This document shows positions 3,001-51,230 of a stretch of DNA of 64,000 nucleotides, piece after piece. Numbering within the stretch: the stretch's first letter is position 1; each line of letters begins with the position of its first letter. The position numbers and the translations under genes are program-made. Origin of the DNA: a virus; IMG/VR virus record IMGVR_UViG_3300003691_000002, positions 24,691 to 88,690 of that record; one strand, 5' to 3'. The notes beneath the pieces are model-generated. The model saw nothing but the letters and a program-made list of their open reading frames with translations. It had not been told where the DNA came from and ran no database searches.

Positions 3001-6000
3001 TTGATTTTATTATCAATGACCCTACTTATGAACACTACGATGAATTTAGAAGTGTTTTAGAAATTCAAAAATTACAAAGAAAAACAGCTAAAAAATTAAT
3101 TTATATTGAACCTGATCACAATGCTCCACTGGAAACACAAACTATGGAGCAATTACAAAATCATTTATTAGAAGCTTATATATCAGTTTTTACAAATAAA
3201 AACAACTATAAGTTGTTAATGAATCCTATTGATTCTTCTGTTATTGAAAATGATATTAAATCATTTTTAGATGTACCAGAAACTTCTGATCTTTCTGGCT
3301 TCTCTGGTATAGAAGATTTGGAATTGAAAAATAAATTAATGACAGGAAAAGCAGGATTAGGACAAGCTGTTAACTATACTGTTGATTATGGTAGGGGCTC
3401 TATGGCTAATTTATCTATGTTAGATGCCACTTTCCCTATGGGAAGAGATACATTAGATAGGCAAAGTAGTTTAGAATTAACTGATGAAGATTTAAAATTC
3501 TATGTAAAAGAGTTTAATTCTAAGATGCCTAAAGAATTACATATAACTTATGAATTTGCACAGGAAAATCTAAGAGATATAGAGATTGCAACTTCTTTTA
3601 TGACTATCATTAACGGGTTTGTAGATGTTGCTAAAGATGATTATTTAGTACAAGGTAATTGGAATTTAGCTACTAATGCTGTAGGTCTTAGTATGCTTAG
3701 AGCAGGAACACATCCTTTTATTATTACCAGGTTTTTATATCAACCTATAGTAAGAGAATATGTTAATTTCTTAGAAAGAGTTAATTCTCAAACTTTAAAA
3801 AGAGAAGGTAGTAGAATTAAATTATTTAAGCTAGAAAAAATACTAGACGAATTTAAAGAAAACAGTAATCTTACTTTAAATGGTAATACTATAAATGTAT
3901 ATCAGTTAATGAAAAGGCATTTAGGGTATTCTGATGTACAATTTTTAAATAAAAAACGTATTGAAAAAAGTGAAGAAAGTATTGAAAATACTTATGAGAG
4001 ATTATATGAAGAATTGCACGAAGCCTTTGATTTAGGTGCAGAAGATCAATATGAAGAAATACAAGAGATAGCTGAAAAAGCTAGAGACCTTTTATATTCT
4101 TATTTTTTAAGTCCTCAAACATCAGGTGTAAGTTACTTTTCATTAAAACATTTAACTAATCAAATTAAAAACCCTACTCTAGCAGGGCAAAAAGGTTACT
4201 TAGAATATTTTGAAGACACAAGAAAATTAGGTAGGAATTTAAATAAAGTAGTACAGGCAAATAAAACAGACGTAGAGGGTAAAGGTAAAAATGCTACGAG
4301 TAATTTAATTAAATTAAATATTATAAATAAGTTATTAACTTATATTGAAGAAGAAGAAGTTGCTGGTTATGAAACAATGCTTTTTTATGATGGTAAAATG
4401 ACATCTGTTGCACACGCTATTAATAATAGTCTTAGTGAGCCTTTAAAAATAATGTTAAATAACCCTACATTATTTCCTACAGTTAATAGCTCTGCTATTA
4501 AAACTTTTAATTATATTTCAAGAAGACTTAGTAAATTTAAATTAGACAATCAAGATTTAGGAGATACTCTTGAAAGAAATTATTATTCTTATTTAATGTC
4601 TGGTTTTGGTCCTTTTCAATTAAATACAGAGCAAAGGAAACAACTGTTGCTTAATATGCCTGATAGGGTAAGAGCTATGCAAATTTTATACCCTGAAAAT
4701 GCTTTGTTAGAAGAGCTAGTGTTGATTACAAGTGAAGATACTGGAATTACTTATATAAATTCTACTATTAGTAAAAAAACTCCTGATAGAATAAAAGAAA
4801 TGGTTTCTGCATGGGAAGATCTTTTAGAAGAAGAGGCATTTTTTGCAGAAGATTTAATTAAATATTCTTATATACATTCAGGATTTAACAGAAGGATAAA
4901 TTCATTTCATGAGTATATCCCTCCAAAATGGTTTAATTTAAATAGATTAAATTCTTATCTTTACCAGTTAGATAAAGATCTTCCTGATGTTGTTGATATA
5001 AATTTTGTAGATCAGTTCTTTAGAAATAATATAAATATTTCTTTTGGAAGTGTAACATTATGGCCTGGTAACTCTACTTATGACTATACTATAGACAAAT
5101 CAGGAAAATTAGTTAGGTTAGGCCCTGTAATTGAAGACAAATCAGAAGCTAAATACTTAGCAAAAAGAACTATACGTTCTAGCAATCCTAATATTCCTGA
5201 TAGAGATGTTTATTATAAATTAATAGGTATTAAAAGTACTAAAGCGGGGCTTAGAGGTATTTATGTTATTACTTCTCCTTTAGGTCTTATAGATGGTAGA
5301 AATAGATTTACAGAATATAATATATTAAATAAAAACAATGTTGCTTATAATTTTTCTATGTTTGATGCAATTAATGAGCAGAGTTTTAAAAAGATTGATT
5401 TAATGAGTATTGTTAATACTATTGAAAATAATTCAAAAGATATTACAAATTTAGATAAAGATGTATTCTTAGACACTCCTGTAGTTGATGAAGAATTTAT
5501 GGCTGGTGGGTTTAGAACAGAAGAGTTACAAAGTAGTGATATAGAAAATGAGCAGCCTCCTACAAGAGTAGAGGTTAATAAAATTATATCTGGAGGACAA
5601 ACTGGGATAGATAGATTAGGATTAGAAATAGGACAAGAGCTGGGGATATTAACAGGAGGAACTGCTGCTCCAGGTTTTGTTACTGAGGAAGGTAAAGATG
5701 ATTCTTTAGCTGATTTTGGTGTTGAAGAAATATCAGAAGATTTACAGCAAGGTAAAAAAGGCAGACAATTTTATTTACCTAGAACAGAGCAAAATGTCAT
5801 TAATTCTGATGGTACTGTATATTTTAGTGAAAATAAAAGTTCAGCTGGACTTAGAGCAACTAAAAATTTTGCAGATGGTTATGATAAACCTTTTATTTTA
5901 AATCCTACAGCAACAGAATTAAGAGAATGGATAGACAAAAATAATATACAAGTAATAAATGTTGCTGGTAATAGAAGCAGTAAAATGTCAGAGGAGTTTG

Positions 6001-40901: not shown

Positions 40902-41210
40902 TTATTTTTTTATAAATGTACCTTTGTGATAAGTATAAAAGGTTGTTTGATCTACTGTATCACCATTTATTAGTTTTTTAGTGGTGATATGATGTGATTT
41001 AGGTTTTTTATCCATCCAGATACTTTTAATGTAAGCAAATTTACCATAATTGTTAGTATAGGTTACTACCAATACTTCATCAGTTATTTCATGATATTTA
41101 TCTTCATCAAAAACACTGTGTATTTCACCATTGTCAAGAAGAACTTCTTTTCTACTGCTACATGATACAATAAAAAAAGTTAATACGAGTAATAATAAGA
41201 ATTTTTTCAT
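40902..41210 (-). CDS. Phage-encoded lipoprotein
   Basis: 102 aa. MKKFLLLLVLTFFIVSCSS is a lipoprotein signal peptide with cleavage before Cys17. The mature part is hydrophilic and beta-rich (EVLVVTYTNNYGKFAYIKSI). Phage lipoproteins placed with early genes often block receptors or DNA entry of competing phages, and that role is possible here. No domain recognised. Confidence 0.78.
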   Translation of the reverse strand: MKKFLLLLVLTFFIVSCSSRKEVLLDNGEIHSVFDEDKYHEITDEVLVVTYTNNYGKFAYIKSIWMDKKPKSHHITTKKLINGDTVDQTTFYTYHKGTFIKK

Positions 41211-41234
41211 AGTTGTATTGTTTAGTTTTAATTA

Positions 41235-41480
41235 TTAAAGTCTTAATTTTGATCTTAATTTAAGATTATAAATTTTATTATTTTTAATAATAAGATTTAA
41301 ATCTCTTAATATAGGTTTTCTACAACGATTAAATATATTTACATCAAAATTTTCATCTGAACATTTAAATATATAACCACTTGAAGTATTTTCTGGTTTA
41401 AACCAAATTACATTTTTAGTAAGTTGTGTGGCATAAGCTGAAAGTTTAGCTGCTTTTACAGCTGATGAGGTTGAAATCAT
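41235..41480 (-). CDS. Hypothetical basic protein, 81 aa
   Basis: A basic protein with NIFNRCRKPILRDLNLIIKN and a KLRSKLRL end. It lies 24 nt upstream of the lipoprotein gene on the same strand. No family recognised. Confidence 0.55.
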   Translation of the reverse strand: MISTSSAVKAAKLSAYATQLTKNVIWFKPENTSSGYIFKCSDENFDVNIFNRCRKPILRDLNLIIKNNKIYNLKLRSKLRL

Positions 41481-41521
41481 AATTAGTAGTTTTTAAAATT
41501 ATAAAGTTTTATAAAAATTAA

Positions 41522-41577
41522 CCCAAAGTTGTCAATATTAAATAAACCTTACAACATTTAATTTGACAACTCTGGGA
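41522..41577 (-). terminator. Terminator hairpin, long stem
   Basis: CCCAAAGTTGTCAA and TTGACAACTCTGGG pair with one mismatch over 14 positions, with a loop of about 28 nt. The minus strand then runs TTAATTTTTAT. It lies 15 nt after the stop of the 41593 gene. Confidence 0.75.
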
Positions 41578-41592
41578 TTAATTTATTATTTT

Positions 41593-41919
41593 TCATTGTG
41601 GAGTAGCAACAAACTTTGCTACAAGGTCTTGGTAGTCATTCGACTCCTCCTGGGTCATTCCCTTGAGACTGACCTGCTCTGGGTTGTTCAACATAGACTC
41701 ATAGTCTAGTATAACCTCGTTATTTGTCAGTGGCTTATTGTCCACTAGAGATCTCATCCATGCCTTGTGCATGTTGAAGGATACCACGTTAAGGACATAG
41801 ACCTTTGTTATCCATTCTCTGGATAGGTGGTATTCTTGTGGGTTATTGAAGTATCCTAACACAAATTCAAGGCTCTTGCCTTGACGGATGAACTCTTCTA
41901 TTTGTTTTTCTTCTGACAT
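41593..41919 (-). CDS. Hypothetical acidic protein, 108 aa
   Basis: A GTG 42 nt upstream (41961) is in frame, but the ATG at 41919 (MSEEKQIEEF) looks the better start. The protein is acidic with a Met/Gln-rich C-terminal half (YESMLNNPEQVSLKGMTQEE). Base composition is clearly GC-richer than the replication genes, with GTC, CTC and GAC codons, shared with the next two genes upstream. Function unknown. Confidence 0.6.
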   Translation of the reverse strand: MSEEKQIEEFIRQGKSLEFVLGYFNNPQEYHLSREWITKVYVLNVVSFNMHKAWMRSLVDNKPLTNNEVILDYESMLNNPEQVSLKGMTQEESNDYQDLVAKFVATPQ

Positions 41920-42031
41920 CTTGCTCGATTTAATGTGGTTAAGTGTGGTTGCCAGATTCACTCAGCTCTGGTCTGGGCATTATCCTCTTGGTTATAGTAC
42001 AAGAGTAACTAGGGATCGGGAGTGAGTGCTA

Positions 42032-42256
42032 CTATTGTTCACACTCTATGTACTCCCTTAGCTCTTTTTTGAGCCTACTGCACCGCATAGTACTTGCTCC
42101 CTTGTTGTGGAAGAACAAAACTGTCGGTGGTAGCTCATCGAGGATTGCTCGGGCTTGTCCCACTGTACGGATATCGTAGTAGTCAGCCCATGATTTGAAG
42201 CGGACTGAAAAACGATACTTGTCAATACGGTGGGCATTAATTCGTTTGGTTGCCAT
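42032..42256 (-). CDS. Hypothetical basic protein, 74 aa
   Basis: Basic and compact (MATKRINAHRIDKYRFSVRF, then GQARAILDELPP and CSRLKKELREYIECEQ). The GC-rich codon use is unlike the main block. The 70-nt gap to the next gene holds small hairpins (CTCTTG/CAAGAG, CCAGA/TCTGG). Function unknown. Confidence 0.6.
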   Translation of the reverse strand: MATKRINAHRIDKYRFSVRFKSWADYYDIRTVGQARAILDELPPTVLFFHNKGASTMRCSRLKKELREYIECEQ

Positions 42257-42296
42257 AATATTGATTAGTTAGTTATTTAATTATTGATTAAATAAT

Positions 42297-42334
42297 AACC
42301 TCACCTTCATCAGTTGCCTGAATCCAGTGAGGTT
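42297..42334 (-). terminator. Probable terminator after the 52-aa gene
   Basis: AACCTCAC and GTGAGGTT form an 8-bp stem with a 22-nt loop. The minus strand continues ATTATTT. It begins 8 nt after the stop of the 52-aa gene. Confidence 0.6.
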
Positions 42335-42341
42335 TAAATTG

Positions 42342-42500
42342 TTATTTAATTGGCTCTGTAAAGAATTGTATTCCAGTTTTATAATTATGAGAAAACTTTG
42401 TAGCTAATGCTTCTTGCATAATTTTTGCCATTCCTTCATTTTGAAATGCTCCCCATTCTCCTCCTTTATTATCTTTCACTATGTGTGTGTATTCAAACAT
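42342..42500 (-). CDS. Hypothetical protein, 52 aa
   Basis: MFEYTHIVKDNKGGEWGAFQ to QFFTEPIK. It is flanked by a hairpin downstream and by a structured, gene-free stretch upstream. Normal phage codon use supports it. Family unknown. Confidence 0.6.
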   Translation of the reverse strand: MFEYTHIVKDNKGGEWGAFQNEGMAKIMQEALATKFSHNYKTGIQFFTEPIK

Positions 42501-42529
42501 GACACTATATTTATATTGTTAAACCTGAC

Positions 42530-42840
42530 ATAATGTTTATGCGTTATGTTTCGTCTTAATTTTCAAAGACTCATCAGAGGTTCTTAATAGCTGTAAAAGC
42601 TATAAAATATTGTGAGATGTAAAAATACACAATTTAAAAAGAGAGGAAAAGGTGTGAAGAGGTATAGTACAACATATTAAGCGATGAACTAAGTCATACT
42701 ATAAATGGTAAATCCAAACTACACACCTATTATCCTCTCTCAGGCTTTTAGAAGCCTTCTAAGAAACTTTAACAATGGATCTGTACCAACATACCACTGC
42801 TACTCTAAAAGTCTCTTAAACGGGCTTATTTAAAGCCAAA
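42530..42840. ncRNA. Gene-free stretch with dense secondary structure, candidate structured RNA
   Basis: No ORF covers this region. The centre (about 42639-42741) is a long three-part hairpin: AGAGAGGA pairs with TCCTCTCT, AGGTGTG with CACACCT, and TATAGTA with TACTATA. Around it lie hairpins TAGCT/AGCTA, TTGTG/CACAA, AGGCTT/AAGCCT (TTAG loop) and GGCTT/AAGCC. CTTTTAGA inside the AGGCTT hairpin can instead pair with TCTAAAAG about 60 nt further on, giving two exclusive folds. The strand is uncertain: minus would make it a leader of the 52-aa gene, plus an independent RNA. Confidence 0.55.
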
Positions 42841-42890
42841 CAAACAAAACACCGAGTAAACTGAATCCTCGATATGCTTTTTAACCACGA

Positions 42891-42912
42891 AAAAGGGGAT
42901 TTAATCCCCTTT
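42891..42912 (-). terminator. Terminator after the 141-aa gene
   Basis: AAAGGGGAT and ATCCCCTTT form a stem with a 2-4 nt loop flanked by A-rich sequence on the left. It lies 3 nt after the gene's stop. Confidence 0.85.
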
Positions 42913-42914
42913 CA

Positions 42915-43340
42915 TTAGGTGGCTTCTCCCGCCAGCTCTGCTGCGGAGACCACCAACTTGTCAATGTCTTCTTGGGACAAGGTCCCAAAGACATCAGCAC
43001 TAGTCAGTGCAACTGACTGTGGTGAATACAAAGACACGTAGAATTCTTCTTCGTTGTCTTCTTTAGGTGAGAGCAACAACTGACAAGTTTTGTCCTCACT
43101 TTTGCCAGTTAACTTGTCAAAGTTCTGGTCAAATTGCCATTTCCACAACATACCTGTTGTTGGAATGTCTTGCCCAGAAGCATTCTTGAATGTGAACTGG
43201 GTGGTAGCGAACTGGGTTTTACCCTTGTTCTTACCTGTTCTAGTGGTTAAAAATTTCGGCTCGTCCGGAAGTTTTCCACTAATCACTGCGTCTGCTAAGT
43301 AAGCAGGTTTGTGATCCCATGTTAATGTTGGAGTCAACAT
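42915..43340 (-). CDS. Hypothetical protein, 141 aa, GC-rich
   Basis: The first leftward gene at the divergent region and clearly GC-richer than its surroundings. The middle is beta-rich with many Lys, Thr and Gln (KTQFATTQFTFKNASG, MLWKWQFDQNF, FYVSLYSPQSVAL), and the C-terminus is acidic (LSQEDIDKLVVSAAELAGEAT). A beta-rich core plus an acidic tail could fit a DNA-binding OB-like protein, but I cannot support that further. The codon use suggests high expression or recent acquisition. Confidence 0.65.
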   Translation of the reverse strand: MLTPTLTWDHKPAYLADAVISGKLPDEPKFLTTRTGKNKGKTQFATTQFTFKNASGQDIPTTGMLWKWQFDQNFDKLTGKSEDKTCQLLLSPKEDNEEEFYVSLYSPQSVALTSADVFGTLSQEDIDKLVVSAAELAGEAT

Positions 43341-43547
43341 AATTTTGTTTTTTAAGGATTAAATAAACATTTGTTTTTGTGTGGGGTACTCCCACAAAAC
43401 TGAAAAAGAGTGGGGGTTGATATTGGATAATAACCCACACCCATCCATATTAATTTTTTTTTCCAAAAAATTTTTTTTAAAAAATTTATTTTTTTTCTTG
43501 TATATGTCAATTTTTTTTTGTATATTTGCAGCATATAAAAACACATT
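43341..43547. promoter_or_regulatory. Divergent control region
   Basis: It separates the leftward and rightward blocks. It contains poly-T/poly-A tracts, two GTGGG/CCCAC inverted repeats (43381-43436), and on the minus strand TTGAC (43506-43510) about 18 nt before TAAATTTT, a possible leftward promoter. The rightward promoter is listed separately. Confidence 0.5.
43497..43532 (+). promoter_or_regulatory. Rightward promoter P1 (Bacteroidota type)
   Basis: TTG at 43498, 20 nt, then TATATTTG (43521-43528), matching the TTG/TAnnTTTG pattern of Bacteroidota. The extended sequence CTTGTATATGTCAA and GTATATTTGCA recurs almost unchanged at 44202. Confidence 0.75.
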
Positions 43548-43844
43548 ATGAAACTAGATACAATTTTTTTACAATTTGTGCCAAATAAAATACTAAAAAA
43601 GTATTCCCAAACATGGGCTGAAAAACCAAAAGCCACCTTAGCAGAATTTGCAGAGGCTTGTTCTAATTCTAAACATACTAATTTTTACACAGATTGGCAA
43701 GACATTAAAGAACATTATCAAGGTTATCTAAGAGGAGAAGTAAATCTAAGGTACCCAGAAGGTATATTACACCCTGATAGAGTTCTTTTAAAAATAATGA
43801 GAGAAGCAAACAAACAAATTAACCTTGATAATCATGAGTTTTAA
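43548..43844 (+). CDS. Hypothetical protein, 98 aa
   Basis: Its ATG lies about 20 nt after the promoter's TATATTTG element, so the leader is very short or nearly absent. Charged, helical sequence with WAEKPKATLAEFAEACSNS and LHPDRVLLKIMREANKQ. It is first in the rightward series and probably an early gene. Family unknown. Confidence 0.7.
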   Translation: MKLDTIFLQFVPNKILKKYSQTWAEKPKATLAEFAEACSNSKHTNFYTDWQDIKEHYQGYLRGEVNLRYPEGILHPDRVLLKIMREANKQINLDNHEF

Positions 43845-43858
43845 AATTAAAAATAAAT

Positions 43859-44176
43859 ATGGTAACAGCAGTAGTGAGTAAATTTACAAATTTACCAGAA
43901 TTAGAAGAATTTTTAACAAGTATAACAGAAGGAGAACTAGTAGATAGAACTGTTCTTTTAGAGTTTACAACAGACAGAGAAGCATACTACTTTTATAAAG
44001 AAGTTGTTAAATTTGATTCCCCTTGGCAAAAATATTATAAACAAAAAGATAATAGTGAAGTAGTAACAATAGATTATTTAATTGCCCCAAACAACATAAA
44101 AGTCTACCCAAAGATTCTTGAAGCAGCAGAAGAAAAAAATAAAGATGGTTTTATGTTTGGTCAGGCCGAGGCTTAA
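43859..44176 (+). CDS. Hypothetical acidic protein, 105 aa
   Basis: Acidic with alternating strands and helices (LPELEEFLTSITEGELVDRT, EVVTIDYLIAPNNIKVY). It lies 14 bp after the first gene, in the same transcript, and just before the second promoter. Family unknown. Confidence 0.65.
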   Translation: MVTAVVSKFTNLPELEEFLTSITEGELVDRTVLLEFTTDREAYYFYKEVVKFDSPWQKYYKQKDNSEVVTIDYLIAPNNIKVYPKILEAAEEKNKDGFMFGQAEA

Positions 44177-49262: not shown

Positions 49263-49819
49263 TGAAGCTAATTAAATTAGAAAATTGGGCAATAGTAGCC
49301 TCCGAGGAAACTTGGGGGCTACAGCCTTTTGCTGCTATTTTAAAAAGAGATAAAACAAAAAATAAAGAAATAGCACATAAAGAATTATTATATATTTATT
49401 ATTTTTGTAGTATTAAATCTGATTATTTATCAATCCCAGAAGATAAAAGAGGAGAAGAAATAAAGAAAGATGTAGGATTGCCTGATAAATGGACGCAAGA
49501 TGAAGTAATAACTAATGCTATTAATTTTTATAATAGTTTTGATAGTCCCCTGGAGACTTTATATAGACAGACACTTACGGCTGTTCAAGCTATTGGAAAG
49601 TATTTAGAAAACACAGAAGCGTTATTAGCAGAAAGAGATGTAGCAGGTAAACCAGTTTATGATATATCTAAAATAACTACTTCTGTGCAAAGAGTTCCAA
49701 AGCTTATGGCAGATATAAAAGCTGCTTATAAAGAAGTAATAAAAGAACAAGAAGATAACGAAAACAAAACTAAAGGAAGTAAAAAGTTTAATACATATGA
49801 AGACCTCGACGGATTTTAA
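49262..49819 (+). CDS. Conserved-type hypothetical protein before the chaperonin, 185 aa
   Basis: IKLENWAIVASEETWGLQPF and KELLYIYYFCSIKSDYL, a helical middle (LYRQTLTAVQAIGKYLENTE), and a charged tail. Its size, context and N-terminal style are like the small proteins that precede TerL in crAss-like packaging blocks. Function unknown. Overlaps the chaperonin gene by 23 nt. Confidence 0.68.
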   Translation: MKLIKLENWAIVASEETWGLQPFAAILKRDKTKNKEIAHKELLYIYYFCSIKSDYLSIPEDKRGEEIKKDVGLPDKWTQDEVITNAINFYNSFDSPLETLYRQTLTAVQAIGKYLENTEALLAERDVAGKPVYDISKITTSVQRVPKLMADIKAAYKEVIKEQEDNENKTKGSKKFNTYEDLDGF

Positions 49820-51230
49820 AGAGATAGAGTATAACAAAGATTTGCTATTTGAAGGTGTTACTGAAATGGCAGAGGCTGTAGGTTCTACTATGGGACCTTA
49901 TGGTAAAACAATTATTATTAAAGATGAGACAGGAACACCTAAAATTACTAAAGATGGTGTTTCAGTGGCTAAGTCTGTTTATTTTCATAACCCTATAAAG
50001 TATACAGGAGCTATTTTGGCTAAACAAGCAGCTATGAAAACAGTAGAAGAAGCAGGAGATGGAACCACTGCTACTACAGTTATTTTAAATAAACTTATAA
50101 ATAATAAAACCTTACAAGAACTAGATGAAAAAACAAGGCTAAAATATTTCAATGAAATAGAAGAAACTGTATATAAATATTTAAATAAAATAGCTACCAA
50201 AGTTAATCATTACGACTCAGACCTAATAGAAAATTTAGCAGCTGTATCTTCTAATGATTCCTATATTGGTAAGCTGATATCGGTTGCTTTTAAACCTACA
50301 GACAATGTAGTAGTTAAAAAAACAGATAAAACTCAGGACTCTGTTAAGACTGTTAATGGTATGAATATACCTACTGGGATATTTGATAATGCTTTTATTA
50401 ATGATCCTAAAACACAGTCTGTAGTGTATGATAAATGTCATTTTATTCTAATCAATGAACATGTAGATAATTTAAAAAAATATGCTGATTTTTTAGAAAA
50501 AATAACTGAAGATAATCCTTTACCTGTTATTATTATGGCAGAGCATTTTTCAGACTCTGTTATTAATCAATTAAGAAGTGTTTATAATAGTGGTACTTTA
50601 AAACTTGCTCTTATAAAAACCCCTGGGTATGCTGAACATAGACAAAACTTAATAAAAGACTTTAGTAAAACTATAGCTCCTGAAGTTAATCCTTTTCTAA
50701 AAGCAGTTCATTATGGGGTTATTAATTCTATTGTAGCCAGTAAAAAAGAAGTTGTTATTCAGTATGACAGGGATACCTCTGCAGATAACTATTTAAAAGA
50801 GCTTAAAAAAATAGAAGAAACTGGATATACTAAAGAGCTTTTACAACGTCGTATACAAATGTTAGAATCATCTTTGTCTGTTATTGAAGTAGGAGCAGAC
50901 ACTGTGGTAGAGTTAGATGAAAAATACGATAGAATAGAAGATGCAGTATTAGCAGTTAAATGCGCTATAGAAGAAGGATATGTAGCAGGTAGAGGAAGTG
51001 CTTTACAATTGTATGTTCAAAAATTTGGAAATAGCAATCCAGTAGCTTCTTCTTTACTTGCTCCTACTACTTGGATTTATAACAATGCAGGCGAAAGTAT
51101 AGAGTATAAAAATTCAGAAGAGCTTTTACAAGAAGGTATTATAGACCCTGTAAAAGTAATTAAAACTGCTGTTAAAAATGCTTTTTCTGTAGCTAAAACT
51201 ATGCTAAATACTAAAGCAATTATTGTATGA
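49797..51230 (+). CDS. groEL: GroEL-type chaperonin, phage-encoded
   Basis: 477 aa versus about 545 for bacterial GroEL. ATPase residues are kept: MGPYGK, TKDGVSVAK (Asp52 equivalent) and EAGDGTTATT (Asp87 in the same position), plus DAVLAVKCAIEEGYVAGRGSA near the C-terminus with the hydrolytic Asp. The apical-domain region is shortened and the Gly-Gly-Met tail is missing. It lies directly before terL, with ATGA-type overlap to it, so expression is tied to capsid assembly, and the capsid protein is its likely client. Confidence 0.93.
   Translation: MKTSTDFKEIEYNKDLLFEGVTEMAEAVGSTMGPYGKTIIIKDETGTPKITKDGVSVAKSVYFHNPIKYTGAILAKQAAMKTVEEAGDGTTATTVILNKLINNKTLQELDEKTRLKYFNEIEETVYKYLNKIATKVNHYDSDLIENLAAVSSNDSYIGKLISVAFKPTDNVVVKKTDKTQDSVKTVNGMNIPTGIFDNAFINDPKTQSVVYDKCHFILINEHVDNLKKYADFLEKITEDNPLPVIIMAEHFSDSVINQLRSVYNSGTLKLALIKTPGYAEHRQNLIKDFSKTIAPEVNPFLKAVHYGVINSIVASKKEVVIQYDRDTSADNYLKELKKIEETGYTKELLQRRIQMLESSLSVIEVGADTVVELDEKYDRIEDAVLAVKCAIEEGYVAGRGSALQLYVQKFGNSNPVASSLLAPTTWIYNNAGESIEYKNSEELLQEGIIDPVKVIKTAVKNAFSVAKTMLNTKAIIV

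Follow-up and report, generated by a model that had tools for sequence, protein, structure and literature searches.

What hammerhead ribozymes do in phages is still treated as an open question. For clustered phage hammerheads, the proposed role is to divide long transcripts into gene-length mRNAs (Perreault et al. 2011, PMC3088659). In the haloviruses HF1 and HF2, the HHphage ribozyme lies 13 nt before the start codon of a helicase gene, and a mapped mRNA 5' end falls at most 3 nt from the cleavage site (PMC3088659). The open-access literature that we searched contains no report of hammerheads in Crassvirales; the 2011 human-microbiome and 2010 tree-of-life hammerhead papers lie outside that scope.

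The locus described here lies in a 64,000-nt stretch of DNA (the window) from an 88.7-kb virus record, IMGVR_UViG_3300003691_000002, whose terminase best matches those of crAss-like phages (39-43% identity). Two minus-strand genes, for proteins of 141 and 52 aa, bound a gap (Table 1) that has no plausible coding ORF, and the region yields no tRNA, tmRNA or Rfam riboswitch match. Minus is probably the strand transcribed at the locus. As a query for relatives, the 141-aa protein found none, and the 52-aa ORF has no match in PHROGs and no tblastn match in phages. On the minus strand from 41,043 to 43,887 there is no Bacteroidota-type -7 element (TAnnTTTG), and none inside the spacer.

The original prediction had called positions 42530-42840 gene-free and highly structured, and both descriptions are borne out. 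The region folds better than its dinucleotide shuffles on either strand (z = -3.1 plus, -4.4 minus), and the repeats named as its stems all lie where they had been placed: AGAGAGGA at 42640 with TCCTCTCT at 42733, AGGTGTG at 42650 with CACACCT at 42722, TATAGTA at 42663 with TACTATA at 42697, and AGGCTT with AAGCCT. That reading was made on the plus strand, while the hammerhead lies on the minus strand. Its interval (from 42530) also stops 3 bases short, cutting off the 3' strand of the hammerhead and leaving C42527 just outside.

Table 1. Features of the locus, in minus-strand order.
Feature	Positions	Strand	Basis or remark
141-aa ORF	42915..43340	minus	First minus-strand gene, upstream boundary of the locus; relatives have an ORF of 118-186 aa here
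Terminator-like hairpin (AAAGGGGAUUAAAUCCCCUUUUU) after the 141-aa gene	42890..42913	minus	Read from sequence; equivalent hairpins in relatives
Strongly structured gene-free spacer RNA	42590..42885	minus	Folding against shuffles; syntenic gap gene-poor in relatives
Multi-segment long hairpin (100 nt) of the original prediction	42640..42740	minus	z = -6.6 by itself; several relatives have long hairpins here too
6-bp hairpin directly 5' of the ribozyme	42587..42603	minus	Sits where RAGATH-1 hammerheads have their 5' hairpin
Predicted type I hammerhead ribozyme with flanking A-rich nucleotides	42518..42586	minus	Covariance model, sub-threshold Rfam, local minimum free energy (MFE)
Stem I 5' strand GAACCU	42578..42583	minus	Pairs with 42521-42526
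Catalytic core CUGAUGA	42571..42577	minus	Invariant in all aligned phage hammerheads
Stem-loop II GUCUU-UGAAAAUU-AAGAC	42553..42570	minus	Nearly invariant in phage copies, partly owing to the search pattern
Catalytic core GAAA	42549..42552	minus	Comparison with phage copies
Stem-loop III ACAUAA...UUAUGU	42528..42549	minus	First A is the last A of GAAA; weakest stem
C of the GUC cleavage triplet	42527	minus	Predicted cut between 42527 and 42526
Stem I 3' strand AGGUUU	42521..42526	minus	First bases of the predicted downstream product
A/U-rich 26-nt leader left on the downstream mRNA by the predicted cut	42501..42526	minus	Sequence
52-aa ORF, gene downstream of the hammerhead	42342..42500	minus	ORF list

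Elsewhere in the window, a 477-aa ORF (49797-51230, plus strand) resembles a GroEL-type chaperonin, a judgement made by eye on its translation alone. A hairpin of the form CCUCAC-UGGAUU-N-GAAG-GUGAGG occurs in the window (42292-42339, minus) and in two relatives (L099 4514-4561 and L109 11030-11063), placed after the stop codons of different genes. Its stem and loop ends are conserved and the middle of its loop is not. It has no Rfam match and is possibly a terminator or a protein-binding site.

Read on the minus strand, the element just before the 52-aa gene is almost certainly a type I hammerhead ribozyme, to judge from its sequence. All its parts are in place (AACCU-CUGAUGA-GUCUU-UGAAAAUU-AAGAC-GAAA-CAUAA...UUAUG-UC^AGGUU): stem I pairs GAACCU with AGGUUU, stem II pairs GUCUU with AAGAC and stem III pairs ACAUAA with UUAUGU, around the core CUGAUGA...GAAA. 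The stems have 6, 5 and 6 bp with standard pairs throughout, and the open end lies in stem I. A CUGANGA and GAAA core, three helices, an NUH triplet (GUC) and stem covariation in homologues are among the features of type I, and these are found here. The two parts that would make a tertiary contact, loop II and the A-rich sequence flanking stem I, agree with the phage consensus. Folded by itself, the segment 42505-42610 has as its MFE structure the hammerhead plus the 6-bp hairpin just 5' of it.

Because Rfam reported this element only below its thresholds (RF00008, Hammerhead_3, 24.1 bits, E = 0.014; RF03152, RAGATH-1-hammerhead, 24.1 bits over the full-length model), we assembled our own collection of phage hammerheads. 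It holds 82 IMG/VR stretches matched by core and stem II only, 80 of them non-redundant. A covariance model built from 56 other phage hammerheads, with the window copy excluded, returns 42518-42586 at 70.7 bits (E = 1.6e-20) and no second significant hammerhead in the whole 88.7-kb genome. When 1.1 kb around the locus was compared with annotated phage genomes, the sole match was one of 42 nt at 93% in two crAss-like phages, and it falls on the hammerhead.

Across these phages the outer stems, I and III, show strong covariation. Stems I and III of at least 4 bp form at the required places in 64 of the 80 loci, compared with 0.3% for shuffled flanks. This is the fairer test because the aligned set of 56 copies was chosen for pairing; in that set, 189 double-change cells are seen against 56 in shuffles, and both partners vary in five of five stem I pairs and four of six stem III pairs. 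Pairing falls from 96% to at most 42% when the partners are shifted by 1-3 columns. Stem II is invariant in the homologues and uninformative on covariation. The cleavage triplet is GUC in 73 of 81 phage copies.

We also examined how these copies are placed relative to genes, using random positions as controls. A same-strand gene start lies 10-60 nt after the cut in 60% of phage copies and 7% of random positions, controls that lie mostly within genes and therefore overstate the contrast for intergenic placement as such, though they do not explain the exact-distance peaks. The same-strand leader from cut to gene has a median of 40 nt, and the next gene usually starts some 25-50 nt past the cut. 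On the other side, 50 of 81 copies have an ORF of 50 aa or more whose stop codon falls inside the core or no more than 60 nt upstream of it (12% of the same, mostly genic, positions). This stop codon abuts stem I in about 24 of the 81 (L004-L085), and 9 copies have the core's own UGA as the stop (0.4% at random). A stop codon at stem I or in the core could couple translation termination to ribozyme folding. These regularities in stop-codon and next-gene distance are sharp and checkable, and they argue for self-cleaving RNA as a punctuation mark between the genes of many phages. The window provides a clean, testable crAss-like case, in which 26 nt separate the predicted cut from the downstream ATG of the 52-aa gene. 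Downstream it is placed as most phage copies are, but a structured spacer stands where others have an abutting stop codon.

The best explanation of the hammerhead, and a probable one even with the uncertainty about its activity included, is a transcript-processing site before the 52-aa gene, a mechanism that we adopt from the proposal of Perreault et al. (PMC3088659). The polymerase would read through from the 141-aa gene, or start within the spacer, on the minus strand, and the ribozyme would fold in the transcript and cut after C42527. The downstream product would begin with a 5'-OH and the leader, AGGUUUAACAAUAUAAAUAUAGUGUC-AUG, and would serve as mRNA for the 52-aa gene and the sequence after it. 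The upstream product would end in the ribozyme with a 2',3'-cyclic phosphate and carry the folded spacer. As a processing site, the ribozyme would part the upstream transcript from the following gene block, and the phage would gain mRNAs with defined ends and two products of independent stability. The sequences themselves show that the motif is complete, how it covaries in other phages and where it is placed; transcription of the minus strand, catalysis in the cell and this benefit are what we infer.

Some results count against a processing site. Of the transcript contexts tried, the longest gives stems I and II predicted probabilities of about 0.8 and 0.93-0.94, but the A/U-rich stem III is formed in only about 35% (0.35). 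Stem I falls below 10% in one truncated context. For the spacer and ribozyme together, a non-hammerhead MFE structure is slightly better (-103.1, vs -100.6 for the hammerhead). Most close relatives have no recognisable hammerhead, the minus strand from 41,043 to 43,887 has no -7 element, and the ribozyme, unlike most phage copies, has no abutting upstream stop codon.

A tentative alternative, possible but in our view less than probable, makes the folded spacer the main object: an RNA of about 350 nt that is noncoding, has a function of its own and lies at a fixed place behind the first minus-strand gene in this group of phages, and for which the hammerhead only makes the 3' end here. In its favor, the spacer folds on the transcribed minus strand at -88 kcal/mol, against -58.8 for shuffles (z = -6.6, with none of 200 shuffles as good), and at z = -3.6 on the plus strand. 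Relatives of the locus bear on this idea in both directions. We collected twelve with 67-77% identity in a nearby ATPase-like gene, and more by profile. In the relatives that extend far enough, about 10 in all (L099, L090/L102, L094, L112, L114, L116, L118, L119, L109 and L091), the first minus-strand gene (118-186 aa) is followed by a gene-poor gap of 237 to about 1250 nt. On the transcript strand, structure is usual in the first 200 nt of the gap, with z about -2 to -6 (L112 excepted). Part of this signal, however, comes from a terminator-like hairpin after the gene; often a long hairpin like that of the original prediction contributes to it. The gap sequences align poorly save among near relatives, the spacer is unconserved outside the hammerhead halves, and a shared covarying structure could not be established.

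The conserved pieces are, between L090 and L099, the two halves of a hammerhead-like element (97% over 63 nt and 100% over 35 nt) and, between the window and L099, the cut site and leader (92% over 24 nt). Both L090 (1428-1690) and L099 (5089-5300, minus) have CUGAUGA, GAAAC, stem I (AAACCU or AAAUCU with AGGUUU) and UGUC. The covariance model does not score their elements as significant, since these have an irregular stem II and, within stem III, an insert of more than 100 nt; they may be slow or decayed variants. The model recognises no hammerhead in the other relatives, and L094, L089, L109 and L091 show no known ribozyme up to E = 1. Most close relatives thus keep the gap and lack a recognisable hammerhead, which is therefore not essential to the locus. 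An intact copy is found in a 91-kb phage contig (L004), about 20 nt before a start codon and with the same stem I sequence as in the window. The locus is conserved in place, and the ribozyme only in part. The conservation that had been expected in relatives accordingly extends to position and, in part, to the hammerhead halves, but not to the spacer sequence.

Two other sequences deserve mention. TATAGCT followed by A or T lies after the long hairpin in the window (42598-42604, minus) and recurs in the gaps of L099, L090, L119, L089, L116, L118, L004 and L110, sometimes 10 nt before an ATG. We considered it as a shared promoter or leader element; it is not enriched over chance in the window and is a weak lead. 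In the crAss-like relative L102, positions 4360-4707 (minus) give a borderline match to a permuted tmRNA (47.3 vs 47 bits) adjoining a 119-nt tRNA-like match, and ARAGORN makes no call for this tmRNA candidate.

Other Crassvirales have hammerheads in stretches of up to 2.2 kb free of annotated genes (cr131_1, cr272_1, cr273_1 and cr53_1), where some small unannotated ORFs are possible. The cr273_1 hammerhead has a one-base insertion in its core, and cr272_1 also carries a RAGATH-1 hammerhead. The 2.2-kb tract of cr53_1 packs a RAGATH-14 (206 bits), two hatchets (94 and 86 bits) and one hammerhead, a concentration that again favors a spacer RNA with a function of its own. In L103 (NC_055889.1, Blohavirus americanus), positions 1812-2730 hold a RAGATH-14, a hammerhead and two hatchet ribozymes within a 2.2-kb annotated-gene-free tract, followed by a tRNA-Leu. 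The folded spacer and the ribozyme-rich Crassvirales tracts point to noncoding RNA loci left blank by protein-based annotation. A broader version, which we regard as speculative and rather unlikely, is that Crassvirales have, after the first gene of one transcription block, a fixed-place and fast-evolving structured noncoding RNA locus whose product is the released RNA and not a protein. Its ends would be cut by ribozymes: a hammerhead here, and hammerhead, RAGATH-1 or hatchet in others.

It is improbable that the locus is a regulatory switch, in which the spacer, by folding in competing ways, would switch the ribozyme, or the translation of the 52-aa gene, on or off. The hammerhead and non-hammerhead folds of the full RNA do lie within 2.5 kcal/mol, and the probability of stem I swings from below 0.1 (in one truncated context) to 0.9 with the choice of RNA ends. 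Yet the accessibility of the start codon of the 52-aa gene in silico is hardly altered by cleavage (0.53 to 0.58), and there is no conserved alternative pairing. The mutually exclusive folds that had been proposed, through an 8-bp pairing of CTTTTAGA with TCTAAAAG, are at chance level: a perfect 8-bp complement is present in 66% of region shuffles, and 40% reach the observed number (2). A large RNA had been suggested as well, and covariance models for ROOL, GOLLD and other large RNAs in Rfam give no match at the gathering level or up to E = 5. What survives of the proposed functional RNA ahead of the 52-aa gene is the hammerhead itself and an adjoining spacer that is structured and gene-poor at a syntenic position; the large RNA and the switch pairing do not.

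Decay to an inactive hammerhead in a non-functional gap appears quite improbable: it would account for the A/U-rich stem III and for the degenerate, hammerhead-like sequences that L090/L102 and L099 carry at this locus, but the window copy is intact in every core nucleotide and all three stems.

Two or three hammerheads share a strand in several IMG/VR phages of about 70-100 kb. In G007, G008, G010 and NC_055903.1 (W02), two or three same-strand hammerheads lie 0.2-2.3 kb apart, one of them sometimes of the RAGATH-1 type. Hammerheads arranged in this way, which occur in other large phages, several of them crAss-like, could excise the intervening RNA. That a second, unrecognised 5' ribozyme joins the hammerhead here in excising the spacer as a separate or circular RNA is nevertheless very improbable: this region has no second known ribozyme (Rfam, E up to 5), the covariance model finds one hammerhead in this genome, and tandem phage hammerheads in published tests gave no detected spliced or circular products (PMC3088659).

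A processing site before the 52-aa gene remains the preferred reading, and the element can be set beside the systems already described. With the type I hammerheads of phages and prophages (PMC3088659; Rfam clan CL00010), it shares the core, three stems, the GUC triplet and an intergenic same-strand site just before a gene; unlike them, it scores under the Rfam gathering threshold and is preceded by a long structured spacer instead of a stop codon. It does not belong to Hammerhead_3 (RF00008), for which it scores 24.1 against a gathering threshold of 48.5 bits, and its helices show the type I and not the type III permutation. RAGATH-1 hammerheads (RF03152) resemble it in their full-length alignment, the same permutation and the hairpin directly 5' of stem I, but here too it falls short of gathering (24.1 vs 56.3 bits), and its stem-loop II is of the GUCUUUGAAAAUUAAGAC type. 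True RAGATH-1 copies were found elsewhere in crAss-like and other large phages. Like HHphage of HF1 and HF2, for which an mRNA 5' end maps to the cut, it lies a few nucleotides before a start codon; HHphage, however, has a variant core where the window has a canonical one, and the hosts of HF1 and HF2 are archaea. GOLLD and ROOL are likewise gene-free, structured and found in phage genomes, whereas the window spacer has no Rfam match, is about 300 nt long and is not conserved in sequence. Among these systems, the window element is best placed as a phage type I hammerhead that most likely acts in mRNA processing, joined to a structured region that evolves fast at a conserved position.
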